54,169 nucleotides of DNA from Acidobacteriota bacterium (GTDB lineage: Bacteria; Acidobacteriota; Terriglobia; Versatilivoradales; Versatilivoraceae): NCBI GenBank assembly GCA_022821775.1, contig JAJECY010000048.1, forward strand, positions 1 to 54,169, in the 5' to 3' direction. Both the position numbers and the translations under genes were made by a program. The notes beneath the pieces were generated by a model. It was not told the DNA's origin and ran no database searches. It saw only the letters and a program-made list of their open reading frames with translations. Shown piece after piece: positions 37,290-37,522 of the stretch. The stretch's first letter is position 1; the number at the start of each line of letters is the position of its first letter.

Positions 37290-37465
37290 CAAGGCGATAG
37301 AGGAGCGGCGGGCCAAGAGTAGCGCGGGGGAGATGGCCAGCATCGACGATCCCGCGGGAAAGGGGACGCCGCCGAAACCATTCGGCGATGGCCGTCGAAG
37401 GGTTGGTTGAATGGATGAAGAATCCTTCAACTGTCACCCGGCGAATTGCGGGTGGAGCGCTATCA
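37290..37465 (+). promoter_or_regulatory. Lysine riboswitch (L-box) aptamer upstream of homocitrate synthase
   Basis: The five-stem lysine aptamer can be traced. P1 pairs GATAG (37296-37300) with CTATC (37460-37464). P2 pairs GCGGCG (37305-37310) with CGCCGC (37367-37372). The conserved AAGAGTA (37315-37321) and GAAAGGGGACGCCGCCGAAA (37358-37377) match the class. P4 is GTTGAA with TTCAAC (around 37406-37431), followed by CTGTCA. P5 pairs CACCCG (37435-37440) with CGGGTG (37449-37454). GGCCA in the P2 loop can pair with TGGCC in the P3 loop, as in the known kissing interaction. A TACAAT -10-like hexamer lies at 37272-37277 without a good -35. An intrinsic terminator follows. Confidence 0.94.
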
Positions 37466-37493
37466 GGATGACGAGCCAGTGAGCTGGGACATC

Positions 37494-37522
37494 GGTGAGA
37501 GCGGCGCTCTCACCTTTTTTTT
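37494..37522 (+). terminator. Intrinsic terminator forming the riboswitch expression platform
   Basis: A 9-bp perfect stem GGTGAGAGC (37494-37502) and GCTCTCACC (37506-37514) with loop GGC is followed by eight Ts (37515-37522). It lies between the lysine aptamer and the homocitrate synthase ATG. GGTGGAGCGC at the 3' side of the aptamer (37451-37460) can instead pair with GCGCTC-T-CACC (37504-37514), giving a competing antiterminator. Confidence 0.92.

Follow-up and report, generated by a model that had tools for sequence, protein, structure and literature searches.

Lysine riboswitches (L-box, RF00168) are described in the open literature searched as regulators of diaminopimelate-route, transport and catabolic genes, and the transcription-terminating representatives, such as the leader of B. 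subtilis lysC, combine a five-helix aptamer with mutually exclusive hairpins. A 2026 covariation model that joins the aptamer to its expression platform (PMC13273304) was built from leaders with 25–50 bases after the aptamer and is reported to have an overlap between the two that covers a larger part of the aptamer than it does in the B. subtilis lysC leader. A survey published in 2017 and covering 468 lysine riboswitches gives asd-lysC for its acidobacterium and does not contain the word homocitrate, and no earlier report of a link between a lysine riboswitch and a homocitrate synthase gene (hcs) was found in the openly accessible literature searched, subscription papers lying outside that search.

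The locus described here lies in a window of 54,169 nucleotides (the whole stretch of DNA analysed, from an Acidobacteriota bacterium) and resembles the B. subtilis lysC type in its five-helix aptamer, its mutually exclusive hairpins and the expectation that lysine turns the gene OFF. Unlike that type, however, its target is homocitrate synthase, and we consider it highly probable that the riboswitch shuts off this first enzyme of the alpha-aminoadipate/LysW route by transcription termination. The device itself follows the standard, textbook design of lysine OFF switches, whereas as a regulon it adds a target; the less ordinary point is that the switch would govern the aminoadipate route. In the predicted folds the antiterminator here overlaps J5/1 and, optionally, P5. 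The larger aptamer overlap reported for the PMC13273304 model appears to be present here too, an agreement at the level of description, although the post-aptamer length differs from those used to build the model. The parts of the locus are as follows.

37273–37278, + strand: likely −10 box TACAAT just 5′ of the aptamer, with a similar hexamer at the equivalent place in relatives.
37290–37470, + strand: lysine riboswitch aptamer (P1–P5), RF00168, 111.3 bits, E 6.4e-29, model positions 1–182 of 182.
37434–37455, + strand: P5 hairpin, UCACCC...GGGUGG, from the Rfam structure mapped to the sequence.
37451–37460, + strand: aptamer strand GGTGGAGCGC, common to the aptamer (P5 3′ side, J5/1 and first P1 base) and the antiterminator.
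37455–37461, + strand: 5′ strand of the core antiterminator, GAGCGCU (P5 end, J5/1 and P1 3′ strand), from a fold with the terminator 5′ arm masked.
37466–37493, + strand: linker hairpin GATG...CATC between aptamer and terminator, compatible with both states.
37494–37514, + strand: intrinsic terminator stem-loop GGTGAGAGC-GGC-GCTCTCACC, from a terminator scan, −14.6 kcal/mol alone.
37503–37514, + strand: contested strand, the terminator 3′ arm plus loop bases, which pairs with 37494–37502 (terminator) or with 37451–37461 (antiterminator).
37515–37522, + strand: U-tract of eight Ts, from direct reading and the terminator scan.
37560–38687, + strand: homocitrate synthase gene (hcs), 375 aa, the regulated gene, TIGR02146, 487.9 bits against a cut-off of 413.55.

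The aptamer match covers the whole length of the RF00168 model at a score above the curated value of 30 bits, and a genome search found no second copy in the source genome. In the alignment, the AGAGG, GAAAGG, GCCGAA, CUGUCA and GUGGAG junction blocks of the Rfam consensus are all intact around the ligand pocket, and membership in this aptamer family points to lysine as the ligand. The mapped Rfam structure pairs 37434–37439 with 37450–37455 in P5 and places the P1 3′ strand at C37460–C37464. The −10-like hexamer reads TACAAT in the window and in its relatives L033, L113 and L036, TATAAT in L040/L042 and TATAGT in L039/L044 (alignment A1); a simple consensus promoter scan did not flag the hexamer at 37273–37278, and its −35 counterpart in the window is weak.

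A first-pass annotation had proposed that the aptamer strand at 37451–37460 pairs with GCGCTC-T-CACC (37504–37514) in an antiterminator of ten pairs and one bulge, in competition with a 9-bp terminator followed by eight Ts. Direct reading returned the same bases and coordinates for both strands, all ten antiterminator pairs are Watson-Crick and the bulge is a U. The terminator scan, which is independent of that reading, found the same hairpin, with nine pairs (all Watson-Crick), a loop of three and then the eight Ts. The leader has the anatomy of a transcription-terminating riboswitch, namely an intrinsic terminator between the aptamer and the start codon and an antiterminator with strands in common with aptamer and terminator alike. 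An exact match to the terminator sequence is seen just once in the window, not counting its own palindrome, where none is expected by chance. When the 3′ arm was shuffled, a duplex with the aptamer strand as strong or stronger arose in 1.3% of cases (P 0.013, window), and the same test in four relatives from two sister genera gave P values of 0.0009–0.014; the more distant L041 showed no such duplex (P 0.75). The significance is modest for any single sequence, and the force of this evidence lies in its repetition across leaders.

With the terminator 5′ arm masked, folding gave a shorter core antiterminator, GAGCGCU:GGCGCUC (37455–37461 with 37503–37509), stacked on an intact P5. The stretch 37451–37460 is indeed common to P5, J5/1 and the first P1 base, but it overstates what has to be released, because this 7-bp core forms with P5 intact. 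In the folding model the GGUG:CACC extension is thus optional, and P5 need not open.

When the leader was folded with and without the aptamer constrained, the terminator stayed even when ligand was left out. For the whole leader the free minimum was −100.7 kcal/mol, compared with −99.3 kcal/mol for aptamer plus terminator and −95.6 kcal/mol for the forced ten-pair antiterminator, and no antiterminator appeared in the equilibrium fold, a result explained by the ∼5 kcal/mol advantage of the terminator state. We used the energies of truncated transcripts in place of equilibrium folding as the test of switching. While the polymerase stands on the U-tract, the last bases of the arm would sit in the RNA-DNA hybrid. 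With the full arm emerged, the antiterminator lay +5.0 kcal/mol relative to the terminator (ensemble energies), whereas with the last 3, 4, 5 or 6 arm bases hidden it was favoured by 0.5, 2.1, 2.5 or 3.3 kcal/mol, respectively. By these energies, the antiterminator expected in free RNA is favoured with a partly emerged arm and not with the complete stem. Given the equilibrium preference for the terminator without ligand, the switch must be decided during transcription, and the truncated-transcript energies suggest just such co-transcriptional timing; that the argument is kinetic and drawn from the energies of static transcripts counts against our explanation.

Under the preferred model, transcription would start immediately 5′ of the aptamer. 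Bound lysine would lock P1 and J5/1 in the aptamer and leave the terminator 3′ arm no partner but its own 5′ arm; during synthesis of the U-tract the 9-bp hairpin would form, and RNA polymerase would leave. Without lysine, the J5/1–P1 3′ strand GAGCGCU would capture GGCGCUC, the half of the 3′ arm that emerges first, while the terminator is still incomplete, the linker would fold inside a long antiterminator hairpin, and the polymerase would continue into hcs. Lysine would on this anatomy be the OFF signal. Pairing of GGUG with CACC, for which P5 would have to open, may add strength to the antiterminator. The linker is predicted to add inner helices, which in the sister genera would also trap the terminator 5′ arm: the linkers there are unrelated in sequence and pair with the base of that arm (ACCGA:UCGGU in L039/L044 and CGAUUU:AAAUCG in L040/L042). 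With the arm taken up to CACC, the two states are nearly level in the sister genera (−1.3 to +1.3 kcal/mol), energies that end at CACC, the longer full terminators there favouring termination more.

The alternative that survives best is a variant compatible with this model, in which the full ten-pair antiterminator with P5 opened is the working form. We regard it as possible, though on balance the less probable arrangement. It would make use of ten pairs that are all Watson-Crick and of a GGUG:CACC segment kept in all seven rows of the family alignment, and it agrees with the PMC13273304 covariation model, in which the overlap is reported to extend deeper into the aptamer than it does in B. 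subtilis lysC. Yet the form with P5 closed looks more stable locally, at −35.9 kcal/mol (from P4 on) against −31.3 kcal/mol (from 37431 on), a comparison that is approximate because the stretches differ in length, and CACC is the last part of the arm to emerge.

Both pairings are conserved among the aligned family relatives. In seven distinct leaders from three genera, 100% of cells are paired in the antiterminator (ten pairs) and likewise in the terminator (nine pairs), compared with 36–69% and 35–67%, respectively, when the partner strand is slid by 1–3 columns. These counts were made column by column for the named structures, after RNAalifold had returned the terminator and not the antiterminator on the platform alignments and so gave no support for the latter by itself. 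The only changes in antiterminator and terminator pairs across the seven leaders are wobble changes, and the family alignment contains no two-sided covariation of the antiterminator because none of the relatives aligned shows a change in the aptamer strand, probably as a result of constraints on the aptamer. One of the records, L039 (VFZK01000054.1), bears the title Acidimicrobiia (Actinomycetota). Its gene and riboswitch nevertheless cluster with those of the window's acidobacterial family, and its RF00168 match of 105.3 bits equals that of family member G399; the record is probably mislabelled.

Expression platforms are usually too variable to compare. Here, the 72-base platform (37451–37522) shows 0 of 72 changes in the congeners L033, L113 and L037, although four-fold sites of homocitrate synthase in these genomes differ from the window by 16–19%; the probability of this result is ∼2e-7 to 5e-6, a rough figure that assumes independent sites. 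L036 has one platform change, and L034 has two aligned differences and a gap. The 29-base linker is unchanged in L033, L113, L036 and L037 and differs by one base in L034. In the relatives that keep the aptamer (L033, L113 and L036), by comparison, the aptamer differs from the window at 10–14 of 161 bases, and the promoter stretch does so at 4–7 of ∼50.

The aptamer has been lost in four close relatives. Three of them, L034 (3826–4000), L037 (3811–4000) and L038 (3740–4000), are missing most of the aptamer but retain the terminator, while L035 (490–520) lacks the whole leader, with ∼13 bases from atpC to hcs. The deletion breakpoints apparently differ among these relatives. A gap is an unlikely explanation for the deletion in L037, whose record is at chromosome level; the loss in L035, on a low-coverage contig, is less certain. 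The promoter stretch is also missing in L034, L035 and L037, so hcs is probably read there from the ATP synthase operon. A platform that stays fixed in one genus, next to an aptamer that varies or has been deleted, offers natural mutants for the function of a sensor-less platform.

These relatives also bear on the view that the hairpin serves chiefly as a constitutive terminator, for instance that of the upstream ATP synthase operon, with the complementarity to the aptamer strand a by-product and hcs regulated in some other way. The end of atpC lies ∼190 bases 5′ of the aptamer, leaders without the aptamer still have the terminator, and without ligand the energy minimum is the terminator state. 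Against these points, a complete aptamer sits directly on the hairpin, leaders of three genera retain the antiterminator pairing, with single-sequence duplexes at the 0.1–1.4% level, and the stretch from atpC to the aptamer contains a −10-like hexamer; we consider this view improbable. Less credible still is a pathway intermediate such as alpha-aminoadipate, in place of lysine, as the ligand of the aptamer: the aminoadipate route does have other amino-acid intermediates, but no result points to one of them, the consensus junction blocks are intact and the RF00168 score is high. Control of translation through a masked ribosome-binding site, a mechanism of some lysine riboswitches such as E. coli lysC (cited in PMC13273304), is just as implausible and was rejected because the likely site, AGAGG, lies well 3′ of the U-tract and in neither structure, and the hairpin has a strong U-tract. 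The transcriptional OFF switch remains the best supported model, by its anatomy, by both pairings conserved in three genera and by the gene downstream.

That gene is the only hcs in the genome above the cut-off. The source genome also encodes LysW (74.8 bits), LysX (345.7 bits) and LysZ (430 bits), all above their cut-offs, and lysW, lysX, an argC/lysY-type reductase gene and lysZ lie together on contig C166. A dapA homologue scores above cut-off in the genome, but no lysA does: the best match, at 100.6 bits against a cut-off of 298, is in a 677-aa protein that we take to be an arginine decarboxylase. The presence of lysW, lysX and lysZ and the lack of a lysA over the cut-off make it most likely that the organism produces lysine by the alpha-aminoadipate/LysW route and that the riboswitch controls its first step, homocitrate synthase. 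All 12 genomes of the window's family contain lysW and 8 of the 12 a lysine riboswitch; three from the sister genera (G397, G398 and G399) combine lysW and the riboswitch with a lysA above cut-off and may carry both lysine routes.

Across the phylum, a lysine riboswitch was found in 43 of 396 genomes. Its neighbours, where identified, include the gene for lysine-sensitive aspartokinase (lysC), DapE/ArgE-type deacylases and others, so that these riboswitches share aptamer family and phylum with ours but differ in target, and none of the 29 other loci fetched from the phylum sample had an hcs relative nearby. Among the nearest 80 homocitrate synthases by name, RF00168 lies directly 5′ of hcs at 7 loci of the window's acidobacterial branch and at 20 loci of Chloroflexota (the soil Chloroflexota L045–L058, L062, L066–L069 and L071), and it is absent from all more distant hcs loci scanned. 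In the hcs protein tree, a single group of 36 rows with 100/100 support holds all the genes that have a riboswitch. Including the window, 28 of these rows have the riboswitch, 4 have an eroded one, 2 have too little upstream sequence and 2 are without it; a further 21 rows lie outside the group, and the scanned ones among them have no riboswitch. With the tree rooted at its midpoint, this grouping may reflect one origin with transfer between the phyla.

The soil Chloroflexota leaders match ours in gene, aptamer family and order of parts, and they contain a nested antiterminator of the same topology, with 97.6% of cells paired compared with 19–57% when slid. The P1 3′ strand again forms the outer helix, but the linker, which pairs with the terminator 5′ arm, rather than J5/1 makes most of the antiterminator, and the terminator sequence is unrelated. 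Only one pair in the Chloroflexota alignment A3, columns 29–40, changes on both sides. What had looked by eye like a compensatory change in the linker helix was actually two one-sided wobble changes. In one of these leaders, L068 (3883–3974), there is no clear T-tract where its relatives have one.

For the wider history of the switch, we find evenly balanced the case for and against a scenario in which lysine riboswitches were recruited to the aminoadipate route in an hcs clade common to the two phyla and, in one acidobacterial genus (Candidatus Versatilivorator and its kin), repeated loss of the aptamer is under way, with the terminator platform still under selection and hcs left attached to the ATP synthase operon. 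If true, recruitment followed by repeated aptamer loss would provide a natural series of riboswitch decay.

Several other features were seen in the window and in a relative. Directly 3′ of the hcs stop codon is a tandem array (38689–38755) of the 7-base unit GAAGTTT, with a 21-base higher unit. The window also contains an Acido-Lenti-1 RNA (RF01687; 44529–44574, 40.5 bits), and L040 has two more copies of this RNA, at 238–283 and 397–442 on opposite strands. A tRNA gene is located at 15882–15955 of the window (71 bits), its anticodon apparently CAU.
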